Source: Gammaproteobacteria bacterium (GTDB taxonomy: Bacteria > Pseudomonadota > Gammaproteobacteria > UBA4575). Taken from it: 64,000 nt of DNA. Of the stretch, positions 39,659 through 47,920 are shown in pieces. The position numbers and the translations under genes were made by a program. The notes under the pieces were generated by a model that ran no database searches, had not been told where the DNA came from, and worked only from the letters and a program-made list of their open reading frames with translations. The stretch lies in assembly GCA_011523795.1 (NCBI GenBank), contig WTFY01000003.1:62001-126000 (forward strand), written 5' to 3'. How positions within the stretch are numbered: the stretch's first letter is position 1; every line of letters begins with the position of its first letter.

Positions 39659-42082
39659 ATGACCCTTATAATTTGGGTGTTAGCCGTAGGCAGCTTGATC
39701 TTCGGACTTGCTAAGGCCGGGTGGTCATATCTCATATGGACTTTGGTCGTAGGCAGTGGCCTATTGGTTCTAACACTGACAGGCTGTTTATCAGTAATTT
39801 TCGGGATTTTTATTTGGGCTTTGTATGTTCTTCTTGCATTGCTCAATGCACAAGAGCTGCGCGTCAGAATTTTGAGCAAGCCAATGCTTGCTTATATCCG
39901 AAGGGTATTACCGCCGATGTCAGATACCGAGCGCGAGGCAGTCGAGGCGGGTACTACTTGGTGGGAAGCAGAGTTATTTCGGGGAAACCCGGACTGGCAC
40001 AAGCTTCTTGTTCATAAGACATCTGAGCTTTCCCCAGAAGAACAGGCATTTTTGGACGGACCAGTCGAAGAATTTTGCCAGATGATTGATGACTGGGAGA
40101 TTACTAACGATCTCAATGACTTGTCAGATAAATCTTGGGAATATCTCAAGAAGAACAAGTTTTTTGGAATGATCATTCCGAAAAAATACGGTGGCTTGGA
40201 GTTTTCCGCAGTCGCTCATTCGTCAGTAGTGATGAAAATTTCCTCCCGTAGCAGCAGTGCAGCCGTTACAGTAATGGTACCGAACTCGTTGGGACCTGCA
40301 GAGCTCCTGTTGCATTATGGAACAGATGAGCAAAAAGATTATTACCTGCCTCGTCTCGCCGTAGGAGATGAAATTCCCTGTTTTGCCTTAACTAGTCCTC
40401 ATGCTGGTTCGGACGCAAGCGCCATATCCGATACAGGTGTGGTCTGCAAAGGACAGCATGAAGGGGAAGAGGTTTTGGGTTTACGTCTGAACTGGGCAAA
40501 ACGCTATATAACTTTGGGGCCAGTTGCGACCGTACTCGGCTTAGCATTCAAAGTTTATGATCCTGAACACTTGCTAGGTGACCATGAAGACCTTGGCATT
40601 ACCTGTGCACTGATACCTACGAACCTTTCGGGAATCAGCATCGGCACTCGGCACAACCCTCTCAATTCATCCATTCAGAATGGACCAAACTGGGGTGAGG
40701 ATGTGTTTATTCCGCTTGACTGGGTCATAGGTGGGCAAAAACAAATCGGTAAGGGTTGGCGCATGCTTGTGGAATGCCTTTCTGTGGGGCGTGGAATCTC
40801 ATTGCCTGCATTAGGCGCGGGTGCGGGAAAGTTTTCCAGCTACATGACCGGTGCATATGCCAGGATCCGCAACCAGTTCGGAATTCCCATTGGAAAATTT
40901 GAAGGAGTTGAAGAGGCCTTATGCAGGATTGGGGGTTTGACTTACATGATGGAAGCTGGGCGCAGGCTCACTGCTTCAGCAATTGACCATGGTGAAAGGC
41001 CCTCTGTGGCTACGGCTATACTCAAGTATCACAATACGGAAGGAATGCGCCAGGTGGTCAATGATGCAATGGATGTGCATGGAGGGCGTGGAATCTGCCT
41101 GGGACCAAGCAACTATCTTGGCCGCATGTACCAGTCCATGCCAATCAGCATCACTGTTGAAGGTGCCAACATACTAGTCCGTAGCCTGATTATTTTTGGT
41201 CAAGGTGCGATGCGTTGCCATCCGTATTTGGTTGCTGAAATGAATGCAGCATCCAATTCTGACCGGGAGGCAGGGTTGAAAGAGTTTGATCAGGCTTTGT
41301 TCAAGCATCTTGGATACACGGTTCGAAACGGGGCAAGATCATTCCTGTATGGGTTAACTCGAAGCTGGCTGGCACCGAGTCCGGAGCGAGGGCCTGCAAG
41401 CAGATATTTCAGGTGTTTGGCCAGGATGAGTGCAAGTTATGCATTTGCATCTGATTTAGCCATGTTGTTCCTGGGAGGAAAGCTCAAGCGAAAAGAGAAG
41501 CTGTCAGGCCGTTTCGCAGATGCCCTCGGCCATATGTATCTTTGCTCTGCAGTGCTGAAGTATTATCAGGATACAGGCCGACCCGCAGCGGATTATCCAC
41601 TTTTGGAGTGGAGTGCCAGATATTGCCTTTACAGGGCGCAGGATGCGCTAGATCAAATTTTGCGCAATTTTCCCTCACCTTTCATGGGCCAGTTACTCCG
41701 GGTTATCGTTTTTCCAACAGGCAAAAGCTTGCGTTACCCGGATGACTCGATTGGTCATCTCGTAGCAAAAATTCTTATCGAACCTTCAACTGTTCGGGAC
41801 AGGCTCACAGACGGTATATTTAAATGTACGGACCCACGAGATGCCATAGGGCGGGTGCAGCATGCGTTTGATGCAGTAGTCGCTGCAAAGGGTGTAGAGC
41901 GTAAACTGAAAAAAGCTCGAATTATTCAACCTAAACTGGGTATAACACACAGCTGGTTAGAGGAAGCAGTTGCCCAAGGCGTGATTTCAGAGGAAGAAGC
42001 AGATTTGATGGAGAAGGCGCACATTGCTACTCAATCTGCAATTATGGTTGATGATTTTTCGTATGAAACAAAAATAAGCTGA
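39659..42082 (+). CDS. fadE: Acyl-CoA dehydrogenase FadE
   Basis: 807 residues, close to the E. coli length of about 815. Two N-terminal membrane helices precede the acyl-CoA dehydrogenase core (about 110-510), with CFALTSPHAGSDASA and the region DVHGGRGICLGPSNYLGR. A C-terminal DUF1974-type domain completes the protein. It catalyses the first step of fatty acid beta-oxidation. AAGGAG lies nine bases before the ATG. The IS1595-type transposon begins 63 bases after its stop and does not disrupt it. Confidence 0.95.
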   Translation: MTLIIWVLAVGSLIFGLAKAGWSYLIWTLVVGSGLLVLTLTGCLSVIFGIFIWALYVLLALLNAQELRVRILSKPMLAYIRRVLPPMSDTEREAVEAGTTWWEAELFRGNPDWHKLLVHKTSELSPEEQAFLDGPVEEFCQMIDDWEITNDLNDLSDKSWEYLKKNKFFGMIIPKKYGGLEFSAVAHSSVVMKISSRSSSAAVTVMVPNSLGPAELLLHYGTDEQKDYYLPRLAVGDEIPCFALTSPHAGSDASAISDTGVVCKGQHEGEEVLGLRLNWAKRYITLGPVATVLGLAFKVYDPEHLLGDHEDLGITCALIPTNLSGISIGTRHNPLNSSIQNGPNWGEDVFIPLDWVIGGQKQIGKGWRMLVECLSVGRGISLPALGAGAGKFSSYMTGAYARIRNQFGIPIGKFEGVEEALCRIGGLTYMMEAGRRLTASAIDHGERPSVATAILKYHNTEGMRQVVNDAMDVHGGRGICLGPSNYLGRMYQSMPISITVEGANILVRSLIIFGQGAMRCHPYLVAEMNAASNSDREAGLKEFDQALFKHLGYTVRNGARSFLYGLTRSWLAPSPERGPASRYFRCLARMSASYAFASDLAMLFLGGKLKRKEKLSGRFADALGHMYLCSAVLKYYQDTGRPAADYPLLEWSARYCLYRAQDALDQILRNFPSPFMGQLLRVIVFPTGKSLRYPDDSIGHLVAKILIEPSTVRDRLTDGIFKCTDPRDAIGRVQHAFDAVVAAKGVERKLKKARIIQPKLGITHSWLEEAVAQGVISEEEADLMEKAHIATQSAIMVDDFSYETKIS

Positions 42083-42137
42083 AGTGACAAAATCAGTCAT
42101 GTAATCTACTGTGGAGCCGTTGAGCAGATAAGGGTAG

Positions 42138-42145
42138 AAAATTTA
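42138..42145. repeat. Target site duplication, left copy
   Basis: AAAATTTA immediately before the left terminal inverted repeat, identical to 46353-46360. Eight bases is the duplication length known for IS1595-family elements. Confidence 0.92.
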
Positions 42146-42172
42146 GGGGATTATATATTTTACTAACCGAAC
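42146..42172 (+). repeat. Left terminal inverted repeat (27 bp)
   Basis: Starts GGGGATTATATATTTTAC and ends CTAACCGAAC. The reverse complement is found without mismatch at 46326-46352; matching stops at the next base on the inside and, once the direct target duplication is set aside, at the outside edge. Confidence 0.95.
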
Positions 42173-42178
42173 CCAGCC

Positions 42179-42304
42179 TTAACCCTTCTTCTTGGCAGGT
42201 GGTGTAGACAGCACCAGCTTCGCCAGTTCCTCTGGTTTCAAGGGGATGTGCTCGAAGTGCTCGTTGTACTTTGAGCGTTTTTGTTTGCTGGTGGGTTTAG
42301 TCAT
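42179..42304 (-). CDS. 41-residue protein at the end of the transposase operon
   Basis: Starts MTKPTSKQKRSKYNEHFEHI and ends LSTPPAKKKG. Its ATG overlaps the 139-residue gene's stop by eight bases, and its own stop lies seven bases inside the left terminal repeat. Lysine-rich at both ends with a central PLKPEELAKLV helix, which looks like a selected protein rather than a random frame. I do not know its function; a link to transposition or its control is inferred only from position. Confidence 0.6.
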   Translation of the reverse strand: MTKPTSKQKRSKYNEHFEHIPLKPEELAKLVLSTPPAKKKG

Positions 42305-42716
42305 CAAACAAAAAGTCGCCGATTATTCTTTGACTAAGGATGGAGATGGAAAGAAATTCCCCATCTTCAATATATAAATTACAAGCAAGTGTTTCCTCAT
42401 TCCACTTGGTTTTAATTTCAAATTTCCATTGATCTACACGGCTTGCAATAAGTTTTGAATTCTGTAATTTCAACTCTACAAAATCGTGTGAAAATTCATC
42501 ATCTTTAACCAATAACTGCTTACTATTACGTACAACATACTTTCCTTTGAAAACCCGTATTCCTCCAGAAATTGTCTTTTCAACTTTGAAAAGTTTCTGC
42601 GGCTCCTTTTCTCTGGAAAGTTTATTAAAAGAGCTTACATCTTTGCCAATGATCTTTACTAATTTATCCAAATAATATTTTGGTGTGCATTGATAACGAG
42701 CAGTAATCCAATCCAT
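42297..42716 (-). CDS. 139-residue accessory protein of the IS1595-type transposon
   Basis: Begins one base after the transposase stop and shares its direction, so it is almost certainly co-transcribed. The sequence is soluble and mixed alpha/beta, MDWITARYQCTPKYYLDKLV at the start and a beta-rich middle (SGGIRVFKGKYVVRNSKQLLV). No domain is recognised. It could be a transposition helper, a regulator or cargo. Confidence 0.65.
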   Translation of the reverse strand: MDWITARYQCTPKYYLDKLVKIIGKDVSSFNKLSREKEPQKLFKVEKTISGGIRVFKGKYVVRNSKQLLVKDDEFSHDFVELKLQNSKLIASRVDQWKFEIKTKWNEETLACNLYIEDGEFLSISILSQRIIGDFLFDD

Positions 42717-42717
42717 C

Positions 42718-43644
42718 TTAACTCACCAAGTCCTTATAACTAAGTTTCTTGCCAACAACTTTTTTGGCAATAACTTCCATCTGAGTAATCGTATCCAAAT
42801 CCCTGTCATTATAACGTCCAGAAAATTCACCAACATACCTATCCAAGTGCTTCTCGCTCATGTGGTGATATGTGCCATGGTATCCACGCTTGAGTAGCGA
42901 CCAAAAACTTTCAATGCCATTGACGTGCGCCATACCATTCACATACTGGCTCACACTATGCTTGACTGCTGTATGGTTAGGCAATCCCTGATAAGAGCGA
43001 TGCTCATCTGTGTAGATAGCAGCATTAACACAAGTGTGACTAAGCACAAAATCATGCAGGGTTTCCATAGTGGTATCTTTTACCAATTTGGCACTGATCT
43101 TGTTGGTTTCCCTGTCCTTGATACCTACAACAACTGACTTGCCTACACCACCACGTCCTGCACGGAGCTTTTTATTGGCGTGTTTGTTTTTCTCCAGTCC
43201 ACCGATGAATGTCTCATCAGCTTCAACTGGCCCAGAGAACTTAACCTGACTGTCTGTATAGACCTCTCGTAGTCTATGCAACATGTACCAGGCCGACTTC
43301 TGGGTGATACCCAAGTCACGATGTAGCTTCAAACTTGAAACACCTTTCAGGTTCGTCGTCATCAGGAAAATACCGATCACCCAGTGCTGATAGCCAAGGT
43401 TTGAACCCTCCATGACTGAGCCAGACTTCACAGAGAAAAACTTGCGGCAGGTACGGCATCGGTGAGGCATCTGAGGATGCTTGGCCTTTACCTGAATGTT
43501 GTGTGAGCCACACTTGGGACAAGTGATCTGATCGCCCCATCGCTGCTCTATAAACCATTTCTCTGCTGTCTCGTCGTCAGGGAACTGCTTCATCAAGGAA
43601 GCAATTGAAATACCCTTACGATGTGATTTTCCCGGCCCTGCCAT
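42718..43644 (-). CDS. IS1595 family (ISXO2-like) transposase
   Basis: 308 residues. An N-terminal zinc ribbon (CPKCGSHN...CRTCRKFF, about 40-67) is followed by the ISXO2-like DDE domain. Catalytic acids are seen in VEADETFIGGLEK, AAIYTDEHRSYQGL and HVNGIESFWSLLKRGYHGTYHHM, the last containing the glutamate. All appear intact and the frame is unbroken, so it is probably active. Confidence 0.95.
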   Translation of the reverse strand: MAGPGKSHRKGISIASLMKQFPDDETAEKWFIEQRWGDQITCPKCGSHNIQVKAKHPQMPHRCRTCRKFFSVKSGSVMEGSNLGYQHWVIGIFLMTTNLKGVSSLKLHRDLGITQKSAWYMLHRLREVYTDSQVKFSGPVEADETFIGGLEKNKHANKKLRAGRGGVGKSVVVGIKDRETNKISAKLVKDTTMETLHDFVLSHTCVNAAIYTDEHRSYQGLPNHTAVKHSVSQYVNGMAHVNGIESFWSLLKRGYHGTYHHMSEKHLDRYVGEFSGRYNDRDLDTITQMEVIAKKVVGKKLSYKDLVS

Positions 43645-43683
43645 TTCTGCTCCAAGTCATTGAACGTTGGAGGTATTTTACTG

Positions 43684-43693
43684 GTTCGGTTAG
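43684..43693. repeat. Internal TIR-like sequence
   Basis: GTTCGGTTAG is identical to the inner ten bases of the right terminal repeat and has the same orientation; the next bases diverge. It sits just upstream of the transposase gene, where the right end of a cargo-free element would be expected. Confidence 0.5.
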
Positions 43694-43943
43694 CGAAAGT
43701 AAACAAATTTTATTGTAATATCAAATAATTCTATGGGAAATTATCCCCTTCACTCAAGTGAGGAGTTGCTCACTAGAATTCCCTTTTAATAAGAAAGTAC
43801 TTGTCATTGAATGACTAGCTGAATTACAATTCCGCTTGTCAACTCTACTAAGACCCCAAAGCCGGGTTATCTGCCGAATGCAATACCATTCGAGCAAGAT
43901 AAATAGGCTTATTTTTCTTTGTTCTGTGGAAACAGGCGGAGAC

Positions 43944-43989
43944 TCCACTTTCTTAGTAGACGTTGACAAACGGCCCGGCACCACGCCGG
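43944..43989 (+). repeat. Repeat/hairpin unit upstream of the lipoprotein gene
   Basis: TCCACTTTCTTAGTAGACGT (43944-43963) resembles 45501-45520; over 22 bases (43944-43965 and 45501-45522) 17 match. A small hairpin CCGGC-ACCAC-GCCGG follows at 43975-43989. Together the two units bracket the lipoprotein gene. Role unknown. The rest of the 376-bp gap from 43645 to 44020 shows no gene I can support. Confidence 0.45.
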
Positions 43990-44020
43990 ATAAATGACGT
44001 TTGTTAATGGGAGATCAACT

Positions 44021-45445
44021 ATGAATCTTATCCGACTTGTACCAGTCTTGTTGGTACTTTTCGTGCTGGGCGCATGTGGCGGAGGCGGCAGCAGTGGCCC
44101 TGCACCGATGGCACCAGAAGAACCGATGGAGCCGATGGAGCCTGAGGAACCCACCGAACCTACGGGTCCAACAGAAGAAGAGCAGCAAGCTAAAATCGAT
44201 GGCCTGACAATGGCAATCGCTGATCCAGATGGGGATGGCAAGTTTCCTGAAACCAATGAATTGAACAACCGCAGACCGGACAATGGTGTAACTATCACGT
44301 TTGGTAATGGTGGCTTGGTCACAGTAGATAGCGATAGGCTCGGCATGAACGACCCCACGATCAGAAACACAATGGAATTCCAGCCGAAGACGGAATCCCG
44401 TGCATCCGTATCGGGCTTCACATCAAGTGTTCATGAACGAATGAAAGACGGTAAGACAGATACTCTTACGCTTTACACAAATGCCGATGCACCAAAATCT
44501 CAAGTATGGAATGACTTTTATACAACTACTTACGACACAGCCGGAGTAAGTGCTGCAGCACCAACTACGACAGTCCCTACTGGCACAACGCAATACAACG
44601 TCCTGACAATAGCTGCTGCTACAGGCGGTCTAAATGCAGATGTCGCAGCTCGTATACAAGGGCCTAGGATTGGCAGGGAAATTGGAACTGATGAAGATGC
44701 GGTCAGGGGAACCTATCATGGTGTACCAGGCACATTTTCATGTGCTACTGCATGTACTCTGACTGAAAATACTGATGGCGGTACTAATTTAGACCAAGCC
44801 ATGACTTTTACTCCGAGTAACACAATTGACGACACTCAAGACGCGCACATGATTGAGGGAGTCATATTGGATATGGATTATCTGACATTCGGTTATTGGA
44901 TACAGACCATGCCGATGGGTGACGAAACGAAGTACAGCGTGGGTACATTCTTTGGAGGGCTTCCAGAATTTACAGCTGGTTCTATAAATGCTTTAGCTGG
45001 AACCGCGACTTATGATGGTTCTGCAACTGGCCTTTATGCCCGCAAGGACTTGTCTATAGAAGATGGATCTGTGGTTGGCACACCGGCAGCCGCAGGGCAG
45101 TTTTCAGCAGACGTAAGCCTAACAGCAAACTTTGGTCCACATGCTGACTATGGCACGAGTGAGAACTACATGATCAGCGGAATGGTGGACAACTTCCAAG
45201 ACGCAAGTGGAGACATGATCGATGATTGGGAACTCAAGCTGAATGCTGCAACATTTAACCAATCAGGTTCTGAAAACGCATTCAGTAGCAACACTGGATC
45301 GGGTGACATGATGGGCCAGTGGCGCGGTATGTTCTATGGGTCTGATGCTGATAGTGCAATGCCTAGTGGTGTTGCAGGAGAGTTTACAGGTCACTTCACT
45401 AATGGCCATGTGATTGGTGCATTTGGTGCTACTACCAGCAACTAG
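44021..45445 (+). CDS. Surface lipoprotein with C-terminal beta-barrel-like domain (transposon cargo)
   Basis: 474 residues from ATG 44021 with GGGAG seven bases upstream; an earlier in-frame start at 43994 is less likely. The signal peptide ends in the lipobox VLGAC, followed by GGGGSSG and an acidic proline linker of PMEPMEPEEPTEPTGPTEEE type (about 25-55). The rest is rich in Gly, Thr, Asp and aromatic residues, with no cytoplasmic enzyme motifs. The C-terminus, GVAGEFTGHFTNGHVIGAFG, resembles the last strands of transferrin-binding-protein-B-like and related Slam-dependent surface lipoproteins. A role in ligand binding or surface interaction is inferred only. No iron or haem receptor gene is adjacent. 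Confidence 0.7.
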   Translation: MNLIRLVPVLLVLFVLGACGGGGSSGPAPMAPEEPMEPMEPEEPTEPTGPTEEEQQAKIDGLTMAIADPDGDGKFPETNELNNRRPDNGVTITFGNGGLVTVDSDRLGMNDPTIRNTMEFQPKTESRASVSGFTSSVHERMKDGKTDTLTLYTNADAPKSQVWNDFYTTTYDTAGVSAAAPTTTVPTGTTQYNVLTIAAATGGLNADVAARIQGPRIGREIGTDEDAVRGTYHGVPGTFSCATACTLTENTDGGTNLDQAMTFTPSNTIDDTQDAHMIEGVILDMDYLTFGYWIQTMPMGDETKYSVGTFFGGLPEFTAGSINALAGTATYDGSATGLYARKDLSIEDGSVVGTPAAAGQFSADVSLTANFGPHADYGTSENYMISGMVDNFQDASGDMIDDWELKLNAATFNQSGSENAFSSNTGSGDMMGQWRGMFYGSDADSAMPSGVAGEFTGHFTNGHVIGAFGATTSN

Positions 45446-45455
45446 TGCACAACTA

Positions 45456-45486
45456 ACAAAGGGGTTCGTATGATTTTCCCCTTTGT
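45456..45486 (+). terminator. Hairpin after the lipoprotein gene
   Basis: ACAAAGGGG (45456-45464) pairs exactly with CCCCTTTGT (45478-45486) over a 13-base loop. It lies 11 bases after the stop codon. No T-run follows, so termination strength is uncertain. Confidence 0.5.
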
Positions 45487-45500
45487 ATACGAGTGAAGCT

Positions 45501-45543
45501 CCCACTTTATTCGTAGACATCGCAGGCCCCTTCGGGGGCCTGC
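45501..45543 (+). repeat. Repeat/hairpin unit downstream of the lipoprotein gene
   Basis: CCCACTTTATTCGTAGACAT (from 45501) resembles the unit at 43944. It is followed directly by a GCAGGCCCC-TTCG-GGGGCCTGC hairpin at 45522-45543, a nine-pair stem closed by the very stable UUCG tetraloop. Confidence 0.55.
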
Positions 45544-45649
45544 ACTTTAACATAGGAACGAAAGGGTACTTGTTGGATTTGCTAAATCCTGCCTTTGCCC
45601 CTTTTGTGTGAGTAAACAACCCCCACGTTGAGTATTCACACACTCACAG

Positions 45650-45676
45650 CCAGGCCCCTTCGGGGGCTTGGTTTTT
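45650..45676 (+). terminator. Rho-independent terminator
   Basis: CCAGGCCCC-TTCG-GGGGCTTGG forms a nine-pair stem with one G-U pair and a UUCG loop, followed by TTTTT. It shares the GGCCCC-TTCG-GGGGC core with the hairpin 128 bases upstream, suggesting duplication. It ends the lipoprotein transcript before the next gene. Elsewhere in the 339-bp gap 45446-45784 I see no gene. Confidence 0.8.
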
Positions 45677-45784
45677 ATACGCAAGAAAAAATTCCATAAC
45701 TCGTAGATCGTGCAACAGGCTCGTTGCATGAGCCTATGGAATATCTTCAGGAACTGGAGGAACAATCTTTAGAAGGGGAATAAA

Positions 45785-46090
45785 ATGACTAATGGAAATA
45801 ATACAAAACTTAAGGAGACTCTTAAGAAAATCCGATGTTTCACAATAATTAGAATAAATGTGTTGGCATTATTCTTTATTGCTTTTGGATTCTTGCTCGT
45901 TATCTATTACAACTTGTCAAATTCAATTGAATTATCCCCAGAGTTATTAAAGAAGCTGGAGACAGAAGACGAGACTATAAAACTCGAAAAAATAATGGTG
46001 GGTGCAAAAGAGGCTTTCACCCTTATGAAAGAACTGATGCTTGTCCTAATAACTGGTGTTGTAGCAGTAGTTAAAGACTTGGTTGATTAA
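45785..46090 (+). CDS. 101-residue single-helix membrane protein (transposon cargo)
   Basis: AAGGGG seven bases before ATG supports the start. One long hydrophobic helix (VLALFFIAFGFLLVIYYNL, about 25-43) is followed by a charged segment SPELLKKLETEDETIKLEKI and a second, shorter hydrophobic stretch (LMLVLITGVVAVV). Lysine-rich N-terminus, AT-rich coding sequence compared with the host genes. No family recognised. Confidence 0.6.
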   Translation: MTNGNNTKLKETLKKIRCFTIIRINVLALFFIAFGFLLVIYYNLSNSIELSPELLKKLETEDETIKLEKIMVGAKEAFTLMKELMLVLITGVVAVVKDLVD

Positions 46091-46218
46091 CTAGATAACG
46101 TAAATAATATCCACAACAAATATGAAACAGTGCCACAGAAGAGAATGGCATATAGTGCCTTCAACCAAGGTGGGTCAATACAGTAAAACATTTCTTCTTC
46201 GTTATTTTGATTGTTCAT
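46087..46218 (-). CDS. 43-residue membrane protein, convergent with the previous gene
   Basis: MNNQNNEEEMFYCIDPPWLK followed by one clear transmembrane helix ALYAILFCGTVSYLLWILF. A charged N-terminus, a Pro-Pro-Trp turn and a single helix form a credible micropeptide. Its stop overlaps the 101-residue gene's end by four bases. No ribosome site is evident, which lowers confidence. Confidence 0.45.
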   Translation of the reverse strand: MNNQNNEEEMFYCIDPPWLKALYAILFCGTVSYLLWILFTLSS

Positions 46219-46325
46219 AAGCGTATTTTAATATACTGATATACAATTTAAAACCCCTCTGGTGTGAATTCCCCTGTTAAAATTCCAGATTGAACACTTG
46301 CATGCTCATGCAAGTCTCTGAGGCT

Positions 46326-46352
46326 GTTCGGTTAGTAAAATATATAATCCCC
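46326..46352 (-). repeat. Right terminal inverted repeat (27 bp)
   Basis: Exact reverse complement of 42146-42172, ending TATATAATCCCC at the element edge. Confidence 0.95.
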
Positions 46353-46360
46353 AAAATTTA
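46353..46360. repeat. Target site duplication, right copy
   Basis: AAAATTTA directly after the right terminal repeat, identical to 42138-42145. Removing the element and one copy restores a continuous AT-rich intergenic target between fadE and the ankyrin gene. Confidence 0.92.
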
Positions 46361-46509
46361 GCTGTCTGTCTCACATTTGATTAGACGTCTTGCTTGCGAG
46401 AGGCTATCCTATTAAAGCTTTTCACCCAGTATCCTGATGAGCGGATAGGTGTGCCATAATCTGTGTATTAGAGTTCAATTTTTGGTAGGTTTGATTCAAC
46501 ATAAACGAG

Positions 46510-47007
46510 ATGAAAGATCTTGACTGGAATACGATTGATTTTTTTGAGATTGCAACTGTGGCAGGGGTGACGTCTAGACTCAATTCGGGGGCTGATGTCA
46601 ATGCGCAGGATCAATGCGGCTACACTCCGCTGCATTTTGCAGCTGCATTCAACAGTGATCCAGCTGTTGTTAAGACTTTGCTGAATGCAGGAGCAAATTT
46701 GCAGGCAGCAGACCATGAATGGGGGGCAACCCCCTTGCACTGGGGAGCTTGGTCCAGTAAAAATCCTTCTGTCATCACAGCGTTGCTGGACAATGGTGCT
46801 GACCCAAATGCTCAGGATAAAGGTGGCGGTACACCGCTTCACGCTGCTGCATTTAACAACTCTAATCCAGCAATTGTTAACGTATTGCTGGATGCTGGTG
46901 CTAAAACAGATATACGAGACAAAGAATCAAACAAAACTCCTTTAGACTATGTAGAAGACAACGCTGCATTGAAGGGGACAAATGCGTACAGGCGACTGAT
47001 GAAGTAA
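46510..47007 (+). CDS. Ankyrin repeat protein
   Basis: 165 residues containing about four ankyrin repeats: GADVNAQDQCGYTPLHFAAAF, GANLQAADHEWGATPLHWGAW, GADPNAQDKGGGTPLHAAAFN and GAKTDIRDKESNKTPLDYV. No signal peptide; probably a cytoplasmic protein-protein interaction module. It stands alone 150 bases outside the transposon. Substrate or partner unknown. Confidence 0.85.
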   Translation: MKDLDWNTIDFFEIATVAGVTSRLNSGADVNAQDQCGYTPLHFAAAFNSDPAVVKTLLNAGANLQAADHEWGATPLHWGAWSSKNPSVITALLDNGADPNAQDKGGGTPLHAAAFNNSNPAIVNVLLDAGAKTDIRDKESNKTPLDYVEDNAALKGTNAYRRLMK

Positions 47008-47362
47008 TAAGGTATAGCTGTCCTGATACTGATTTGCCGCAAGTCTAGGTGTGATACAGGGCCGCCATTCTAGTACCTGGGAGACATTTTCAGGACTGCC
47101 CAACGCAATGAAAGTACTTCGTTCCGGTTGAAGTTACTGACCTTAGGCCAGCACAAAATTATTCTATTCCAATTCAGGAAAAGAATATTCTTGCTGGTTT
47201 GGAAATAAAGGTCCAGGTTCGTCAGCAGGCTCAGGGTCCATGTAATCAGTACAGGGACAGCCAAGACCGGCCATCAGCTAGATGCGATTGTAGCCTAGAA
47301 GCAGTGCCTTTCTGGTGCAGCATTGGCTTGGTCTCTAAATTCTATCTGGGTTCCGTTTGGCT
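47008..47362. other. 355-bp gap between the ankyrin and Smr genes
   Basis: No complete gene is supported. One plus-strand frame is open without stop from about 47107 to 47390 (containing AQNYSIPIQEKNILAGLEIK), but it has no convincing start and runs into the Smr gene's 3' end. It may be a decayed fragment. Confidence 0.35.
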
Positions 47363-47920
47363 TCAGGCAATAGATTTCAATAATACATAGACTGCTCCCG
47401 TACCCCCATCAGCAGGTCTAGCAGAGCAAAAAGCCAGTACTTCGCTTCTTTTTCGCAGCCATTGATTGACCATGGGCTTGAGTTTTGGCCCTTTGTTGCT
47501 GGAGCCATGACCCTTGCCATGGATAATCTGGACACAGCGAATGTTGCCCTCGCGAGCAGTTCGCAGGAAGTGTGTGATAGCTGACTGGGCTTCTGTGATT
47601 GTCATACCATGTAAATCAAGCTCGGCTCCGACACTGTATTGTCCTTTTTTAAGTTTTCGAAATGTACTTTTCTGAATTCTGTGCCCACGAAATGACAGGC
47701 TGTCACCAGGTTGAAGATCTTCAAATTCCAGGCTTACATCAAGAGATTCCTCCAATACTTTCATCTGGTCCTTCAGAGTTTCTCTGGGAACCGGAGAGGG
47801 TTTGGGCACACCTCTCTCTTCAACTCGATTTGAATGATTCGAGCCCAGGGGTTTTACATTCCTGATGAGATCTGCAAAACGAGTCTGCTTTCCTGGGTGA
47901 GAGGGGTTCTGCCGAGACAT
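47363..47920 (-). CDS. Smr domain protein
   Basis: 185 residues. The C-terminal Smr domain (about 95-185) has the LDLHGMTITEAQ motif, IIHGKGHGSSNKGPKLKPMV and FCSARPADGGTGAVYVLL. The N-terminal half is basic and probably flexible. Stand-alone Smr proteins are nucleic-acid-binding nucleases or nicking enzymes; the biological target is not certain. Confidence 0.92.
   Translation of the reverse strand: MSRQNPSHPGKQTRFADLIRNVKPLGSNHSNRVEERGVPKPSPVPRETLKDQMKVLEESLDVSLEFEDLQPGDSLSFRGHRIQKSTFRKLKKGQYSVGAELDLHGMTITEAQSAITHFLRTAREGNIRCVQIIHGKGHGSSNKGPKLKPMVNQWLRKRSEVLAFCSARPADGGTGAVYVLLKSIA

Follow-up and report, generated by a model that had tools for sequence, protein, structure and literature searches.

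Why does a gene for a surface-type lipoprotein stand within a mobile element, and what might control it there? The gene lies in a stretch of 64,000 nucleotides (the window) of contig WTFY01000003.1, from a gammaproteobacterial genome assembled to 2.07 Mb in 22 contigs and 97% complete. An earlier note, written from the sequence alone, had read its product as a transposon-borne surface lipoprotein with a TbpB-like C terminus; our work bears out this reading of the protein and revealed, in front of the gene, a leader RNA that the note had missed. We propose, with a probability of about three in four, that the locus is a portable surface-protein module: an IS1595 transposon in which a lipoprotein with the predicted fold of Slam cargo is preceded by a -10 box, a pseudoknotted leader and a ribosome-binding site (Table 1).

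Table 1. Coordinates of the element, its leader RNA and its genes in the window, and of related leader-bearing elements at other loci
Feature	Sequence	Position	Strand	Remarks
Target-site duplication, left copy	window	42138-42145		AAAATTTA
Terminal inverted repeat, left, 27 bp	window	42146-42172	+	GGGGATTATATATTTTACTAACCGAAC
139-aa ORF adjoining transposase	window	42297-42716	-	no Pfam or NCBIfam family above cut-off
IS1595-family transposase, 308 aa	window	42718-43644	-	PF12762 132.8 bits, NF033547 182.5 bits
Internal copy like inner part of right inverted repeat	window	43683-43698	+	GGTTCGGTTAGCGAAA; repeat scan
-10-like box TACAAT	window	43825-43830	+	directly 5' of leader RNA
Leader RNA	window	43832-43998	+	limits are those of the R1 model match
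Helix P1, 5' arm	window	43836-43853	+	
Pseudoknot strand A	window	43861-43868	+	GCCGGGTT
P2/P3 core	window	43870-43940	+	corresponds to RF02221 core in alignment
Core parts	window	43870-43875; 43876-43885; 43935-43940	+	TCTGCC; internal loop GAATGCAATA; then P3 region, AAACA; GGCGGA
Helix P1, 3' arm	window	43951-43969	+	
Pseudoknot strand B	window	43972-43979	+	GGCCCGGC
Strand C (GCCGG)	window	43985-43989	+	alternative hairpin partner of B; 10.5% of shuffles fold as well as the window copy
Shine-Dalgarno-like GGGAG	window	44009-44013	+	
Lipoprotein, 474 aa	window	44021-45445	+	signal peptide with Cys19, Pro/Glu stalk, handle/pedestal region, predicted C-terminal eight-stranded barrel (residues 328-472)
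G+C-rich hairpin 3' of lipoprotein gene, possible terminator	window	45523-45549	+	repeat scan and fold
101-aa ORF, hydrophobic segments by eye	window	45785-46090	+	no Pfam or NCBIfam match
Terminal inverted repeat, right copy	window	46326-46352	-	
Target-site duplication, right copy	window	46353-46360		AAAATTTA
Related element	L032	7004-9374		duplication ATTAAATA; 142-aa protein right behind RNA
Related element	L075	156-3412		duplication AATAAATT; no clear passenger behind RNA
Related element	L076	712-4299		TTTTAGTT on both sides, by eye; lipoprotein behind RNA
Related element	L014	4307-9208		only CAAATTT common, shifted one base; lipoprotein behind RNA

A repeat scan detected inverted arms of 34 nucleotides at 42139-42172 and 46326-46359. 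A second scan, which looked for matching 22-bp termini bordered on their outer side by an 8-bp duplication, resolved the element to 42146-46352, flanked on both sides by AAAATTTA and with 22/22 end positions matching; chance pairs in real loci reach up to 17/22, and five shuffles of another locus yielded two matches, the better one with 16/22 and an imperfect duplication. The element has the features of the IS1595 family, namely an ISXO2-like DDE transposase (cut-offs, 27 for PF12762 and 75 for NF033547), terminal inverted repeats and an 8-bp target-site duplication. Homologues of the 139-aa ORF stand beside a transposase in L039 and beside a lipoprotein in L033, and the internal copy of the repeat is a possible remnant of an older element end.

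Of the five genomes compared within the genus, only this one has the insertion. In all four others examined, the syntenic site lacks the element's genes, and the acyl-CoA dehydrogenase-like gene of the left flank is followed by the right-hand neighbors, ankyrin-repeat and smr-like genes in G002 and the smr-like gene in G001, G003 and G004 (at a contig end). This absence from 4/4 sites excludes a single-copy chromosomal orthologue in all relatives and, with the complete IS1595-type element and its exact 8-bp duplication, sustains the claim that the gene is transposon cargo. Judged by these sequence features, the lipoprotein gene is almost certainly a passenger of a complete IS1595-type transposon. 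Passenger genes occur in the IS1595 family, and the element shares with other such carriers the transposase, the inverted repeats, the 8-bp duplication and the presence of a passenger; it differs from them in carrying a Slam-type lipoprotein that is equipped with a promoter-like box and a structured leader of its own. A small ankyrin-repeat gene (46510-47007 in the window) adjoins the insertion and has a counterpart at the corresponding site of G002 (76% identity), with no match in the stretches compared of G001, G003 and G004.

The 474-aa translation contains each of the sequence features that the note had named, a lipobox (VLGAC with Cys19, read by eye), an acidic Pro/Glu-rich stalk (PMAPEEPMEPMEPEEPTEP) and the C-terminal pattern (GEFTGHFTNGHVIGAFGA). 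Another in-frame ATG lies at 43994, 27 nucleotides 5' of the ATG at 44021, and GGGAG precedes only the latter. The hairpin 3' of the gene has a diverged copy at 45651-45677 and is absent from the output of a pattern scan. Pfam TbpB_B_D (PF01298) matches residues 327 to 471 with 16.7 bits (E-value of 0.011), below its cut-off of 26, and at an E-value of ≤0.1 it matches 2 of the 11 members of set A6, the window protein among them.

The eight-stranded C-terminal barrel foreseen in the note is present in an AlphaFold2 model built on 11 sequences of the genus (mean pLDDT of 65), whose residues 328 to 472 contain eight strands and in which most ten-residue blocks of the last 150 residues have a pLDDT of 70 to 94; the nearest folds are fHbp, NHBA and TbpB. 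A Foldseek search of the PDB at an E-value of ≤0.001 returned a single match, TbpB (3pqs), with low TM-scores. In a second structural alignment, all 50 rows listed were fHbp, NHBA, TbpB or hemophilin (Z of 12.2 to 16.0), with a Z of 16.0 for meningococcal fHbp (rmsd of 3.1 to 3.4 over 195 to 199), 14.7 for NHBA (2.6 over 144) and 14.4 for the TbpB C-lobe (3.7 over 190). The sole match of a PDB sequence-profile search, ketol-acid reductoisomerase (E-value of 0.12), was rejected. On the strength of the model, it is very likely that the protein has the barrel-lipoprotein fold of Slam cargo, and it is a further member of a known protein kind in an uncommon setting. The resemblance to the cargo of type 11 secretion (TbpB, fHbp and NHBA; hemophilin is soluble) comprises the lipobox, the N-terminal handle region, the predicted barrel and a Slam gene beside paralogues, whereas its score under the TbpB_B_D cut-off and its position as orphan cargo within an insertion element set it apart.

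TbpB-, fHbp- and NHBA-type proteins belong to the known cargo of the Slam translocon (excerpts of PMC8406197 and PMC12282271), and cluster 1 T11SS genes co-occur significantly with transposases (PMC12282271); the excerpted text of PMC12282271 contains no mention of a T11SS cargo located inside an IS. Both paralogues and a Slam (DUF560) exporter, which the note had suggested looking for, are encoded in the same genome. Two more genes match the window protein at an E-value of ≤1e-4, C18 (31% identity) and C12 (33%), and a single Slam gene (PF04575, 76.8 bits; 0/14 control genomes match) adjoins the C18 paralogue, 0.9 kb behind this paralogous lipoprotein gene and in the same orientation (L030: 7303-9153 and 5055-6404). 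Likewise, a Slam gene follows a lipoprotein gene in G004 (L036) and G001 (L040); in G001, a contig ending in leader and lipoprotein and a contig starting with a lipoprotein end and Slam share 55 identical end bases. Within the genus, PF04575 was matched in 3/5 genomes, this one included, and was not found in G002 and G003, both of which carry such lipoproteins; in G003, a partial tblastn match to Slam lies behind the first lipoprotein copy (L035). The ORF list of 36 to 54 kb contains no receptor partner, in agreement with the note.

A leader RNA stands in front of the gene. Positions 43836 to 43972 fold at -54.7 kcal/mol, compared with -26.9 ± 4.1 for shuffles (z of -6.8). Sequences upstream of two other lipoprotein genes match the leader with 85% identity over 163 nucleotides and 73% over 162 nucleotides, and the proteins are only about 30% identical; relative to L038, the leader is 78% identical over 185 alignment columns and the protein 28%, and the nearest protein, that of L014 (50%), has a leader with only 48% identity. 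The sequences indicate that leader and protein have different histories.

R1, a covariance model built from three copies with P1, P2 and a 3' hairpin and without P3 and the pseudoknot, found 25 copies in 55 genomes: the five members of the genus have 7, 4, 7, 4 and 3, and the remaining 50 genomes, of which 14 belong to the same family, have none. The refined model R2 gave 29 matches in the genus at an E-value of ≤0.05, the weakest with 21 bits; those found by R2 only (L108, L109, L114 and L115) are left out of the 25 copies. Over a sample of 369 genomes of the class, the only strong additions were G060 (74 bits) and G233 and G332 (65 bits each; G332 also has a 36-bit match), which fall in two other families and alone exceed 35 bits outside the genus, five others at 21 to 24 bits being treated as chance. 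A search of 398 genomes of the phylum added one match of 28 bits. A weak R1 match (27 bits; L030:9180-9341), absent from the R2 matches, precedes the gene of the Slam-linked lipoprotein in this genome and is perhaps a decayed leader. Rfam gave five matches in positions 42000 to 47500 at an E-value of ≤5 (miRNA, snoRNA and cis-regulatory families), all far under their cut-offs and none on the leader, and none was accepted as its family.

The structure was examined in A5, a sequence-only alignment of the 25 copies in which the outer P1 (6 pairs), P2 (6), P3 (3) and a pseudoknot (8) were counted, the latter formed by strand A (GNCGGGUU) before P2 and strand B (GGCCCGGC) after P1. Cells are paired in 92.7%, against 83.4% for shuffled alignments and 28.9 to 43.7% when the partner is slid, and covariation is 0.410 compared with 0.245, with 0/500 shuffles as high; for P1 and P2 the pairing is partly due to selection, because these helices and the 3' hairpin belonged to the R1 model that found the copies, which P3 and the pseudoknot did not. 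Both sides have changed in 6/6 P1 pairs, 3/3 P3 pairs and 3/6 P2 pairs. Within the pseudoknot, no pair has changed on both sides relative to its commonest type and all steps are one-sided; three pairs show both C-G and U-A. The complete P1 arms of the same copy pair at a mean of -22.4 kcal/mol, compared with -10.2 for arms of other copies, and the own arm is best in 17/25. Several pairs are mostly G-U (U-G in 11, 16 and 16 of 25 copies at three pseudoknot pairs and in 15/25 at one P2 pair), and the frequency of such pairs argues for RNA rather than DNA. We have little doubt that the leader is a real structured RNA, and its conserved loop GAAUACAAUA/GAAUA is likely to be a binding site.

Other pairings compete with the pseudoknot. 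A C-rich strand just before A, named Z, forms a Z:A hairpin of -4 kcal/mol or less in 19/25 copies, compared with 22% when Z is shuffled, and the B:C hairpin is better than 95% of shuffles in 11/25 copies; a looser test of B:C with 4 pairs does not discriminate (25/25 versus 83% of shuffles). Since A can pair with B or Z, and B alternatively with C, the leader may adopt two exclusive states, A:B versus Z:A plus B:C.

From 14 nucleotides before to 4 nucleotides after the RNA start, a -10-like hexamer matches at ≥4/6 positions in 23/25 leader copies and at 5/6 in 17/25 (16% and 3% at random positions). A start codon with a Shine-Dalgarno-like motif 10 to 60 nucleotides downstream, opening an ORF of at least 45 codons (or fewer where a contig end truncates it), follows 14/25 copies, compared with 2/25 in the upstream, opposite-strand control and 8.9% of random positions. 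The other 11 copies fail this strict test. As read by eye, 4/25 have no clear gene behind them (L048, L051, L065 and L069); after L051, the copy in L075, comes a hairpin with a T-run.

The genes next behind these copies, assigned to classes by eye and without a signal-peptide program, encode a lipobox in ten cases (L045, L046, which is the window copy, L047, L049, L050, L052, L053 with an ATT start, L061, L062 and L067), a signal peptide in three (L057, L058 and L060), a hydrophobic start truncated at a contig end in two (L059 and L063), a more distant exported or pilus-related protein in three (L066, a Flp pilin; L055, TadG-like; and L064) and a protein that is not exported in three (L054, L056 and L068). 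The R2-only copy L114 precedes a lipoprotein subtilase; outside the genus, the G060 copy lies 13 nucleotides before an outer-membrane barrel gene and the 65-bit copies lie 345 nucleotides before a secretin-like gene. At L079 (G004:C53), a lipoprotein gene begins about 40 nucleotides after the leader, and its sole well-placed start, after GGAGG, is ATT.

Is the leader related to an RNA that is already known? When ten leader loci were compared with Rfam, two matched sRNA-Xcc1 (RF02221) over its full length, with 30.4 and 27.0 bits and below the cut-off of 53; the window region had no RF02221 match at an E-value of ≤5. Copy L068 aligns to model positions 1 to 87 (E-value of 8.4e-4 on 181 nucleotides), and this alignment equates the RF02221 outer helix with the A:B pairing and its internal loop with that of the leader. 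Both RNAs have the core GAAUACAAUA/GAAUA between P2 and P3 and a mobile context. They differ in that the leader has no terminator hairpin between the 5' P1 arm and strand A; the 5' P1 arm lies shortly before strand A, unlike in RF02221, and hence the A:B helix is a pseudoknot in the leader. We regard the leader as a novel variant with kinship to an RNA family already known.

The sRNA-Xcc1 family itself has leader-like traits. Class-wide, RF02221 gave 42 matches in 27/369 genomes (11 of them above the cut-off), of which we used 29, leaving out 12 without a locus and L151, a copy from the own genome. A start codon with a Shine-Dalgarno-like motif lies 16 to 52 nucleotides behind 25/29 of them, compared with 0/29 in the opposite-strand control and 7.4% at random positions. 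In 18/29 loci, a stretch upstream of the match, absent from the Rfam model, equals or surpasses at least 95/100 shuffles in its pairing with the 3' part; pairing is no better than chance in L130, L132, L135, L136, L145, L146 and others, which were kept in the counts. Own arms pair at -30.1 kcal/mol and arms across loci at -23.7, the own arm being best in 10/29 and of rank ≤2 in 19/29, and this weaker contrast is probably due to a shared terminator hairpin that pairs across loci. As seen by eye, many copies among L125-L145 and L152-L154 have a terminator-like hairpin between the upstream arm and strand A, and in several RF02221 copies this hairpin has a loop complementary to strand A (CACCCGAC).

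The title of one paper reportedly calls sRNA-Xcc1 trans-acting. In Xanthomonas, it was detected as a band of about 100 nucleotides, of which 88 were mapped (PMC2996969, excerpt), and it occurs upstream of symE in integron cassettes, for which a divergent regulatory mechanism was suggested (PMC12444791, excerpt); Xylella has seven homologues, five of them clustered (PMC12189769, excerpt). The excerpted literature contains no description of sRNA-Xcc1 as a cis leader. Both RNAs resemble leaders that act in cis and may switch between mutually exclusive helices. We give even odds to the broader proposal that they are two branches of one unrecognized, widespread class of pseudoknotted cis-regulatory RNAs, in which sRNA-Xcc1 would be a prematurely terminated leader and which, in one gammaproteobacterial genus, would have become a portable control cassette for surface proteins spread by IS1595.

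How might such a module work? The IS1595 transposon would carry a complete expression cassette beside its transposase. We infer that the lipoprotein becomes lipidated, that the genome's single Slam brings it to the cell surface and that it is exposed there and would bind a ligand via its handle region. The leader would exist either as the A:B pseudoknot closed by P1 or as local hairpins, Z:A plus, in many of the copies, B:C, and switching in cis would set the expression of whichever gene stands behind. Control of the downstream gene in cis is likely. The frequency of surface and pilus genes behind the leader makes an envelope- or lifestyle-related signal plausible. Riboswitches of the c-di-GMP-I class control surface and pilus genes, and the leaders resemble them as multi-copy elements before pilin and surface-protein genes; they differ in that no Rfam riboswitch family was matched in the window region or the ten leader loci searched. 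Direct sensing of a small molecule by the leader is a tentative idea that we would sooner doubt than assert. Action via a protein or as a temperature sensor has a chance somewhat short of even: the diverse downstream genes suggest no ligand class and the long P1 helices could melt, whereas the conserved unpaired core and the pseudoknot are more specific than a thermometer needs, an argument that does not touch a protein partner.

Could the RNA instead act in trans, as an independent small RNA like sRNA-Xcc1 whose place before genes is incidental? The short RNA found in Xanthomonas, the L075 copy with its terminator-like hairpin and no clear gene and the 11/25 copies that fail the strict start test fit this explanation. 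However, the start-codon spacing recurs in both families and is rare or absent in the opposite-strand control, strand C and the Shine-Dalgarno motif lie within the same transcript, and premature termination of a leader would also leave a short RNA; by eye, a hairpin with a T-run indeed stands just after strand B in the RF02221 copies L125, L127, L143 and L152. We regard the trans-acting explanation as quite improbable, and it is highly improbable that the palindromic stretch is a DNA element, such as an attC-like recombination site or a small mobile repeat. The stretch is multi-copy and partly within transposons, and sRNA-Xcc1 is known from integron cassettes; yet several mostly G-U pairs would be mismatches in DNA, a -10 box stands in front and a ribosome site behind, and only 5/25 copies lie in recognized elements within the stretches scanned. 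The core consensus of attC sites is GTTRRRY; GTTGACA and GTTAGCA do not match this consensus, and an attC site was rejected. Finally, the lipoprotein might be a selfish or neutral passenger that is not exported by Slam, as methyltransferase-like passengers in related IS1595 elements and the two genomes without a PF04575 match would allow. The intact ORF, the predicted cargo fold and the Slam gene beside a paralogue in the same genome speak against this, and we consider it unlikely.

If the cis-acting module is real, an Rfam family filed as an sRNA and described as trans-acting would be a cis-acting regulatory leader whose model is without one helix arm. Insertion elements would mobilize surface proteins and, with them, the RNA that controls their genes; Slam-type lipoproteins, which are chiefly known from pathogens, would extend to orphan transposon cargo in an uncultured lineage.

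Besides the window copy, four leader copies lie inside IS1595-type elements (L032, L075, L076 and L014), the others being outside recognized elements in the stretches scanned; the transposases of the leader-bearing elements are 35 to 58% identical to that of the window. The copy at L075:2138-2400 (G002:C64), followed by the hairpin with a T-run, is possibly a stand-alone short RNA. In two related elements, L034 and L039, no leader was found, and both carry DNA methyltransferase-like genes, as read by eye. The first (L034:9888-12864; G003:C17), with a transposase, a DNA methyltransferase/HNH-like ORF and the target duplication ATTAGGAT, seems to disrupt a sibling lipoprotein gene in its N-terminal part. 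The second (L039:2685-6243; G002:C17) is of the window's type, with a transposase of 80% identity, a methyltransferase-like ORF and a 306-aa ORF, and adjoins a 1,102-aa ORF (L039:6721-10029) that we take, by eye, to resemble Cas9. Genes that resemble those of integrative-conjugative elements, again judged by eye, lie near the leader copy at 226881 of G000:C18 (locus L074) and near the sibling lipoprotein gene of L034.
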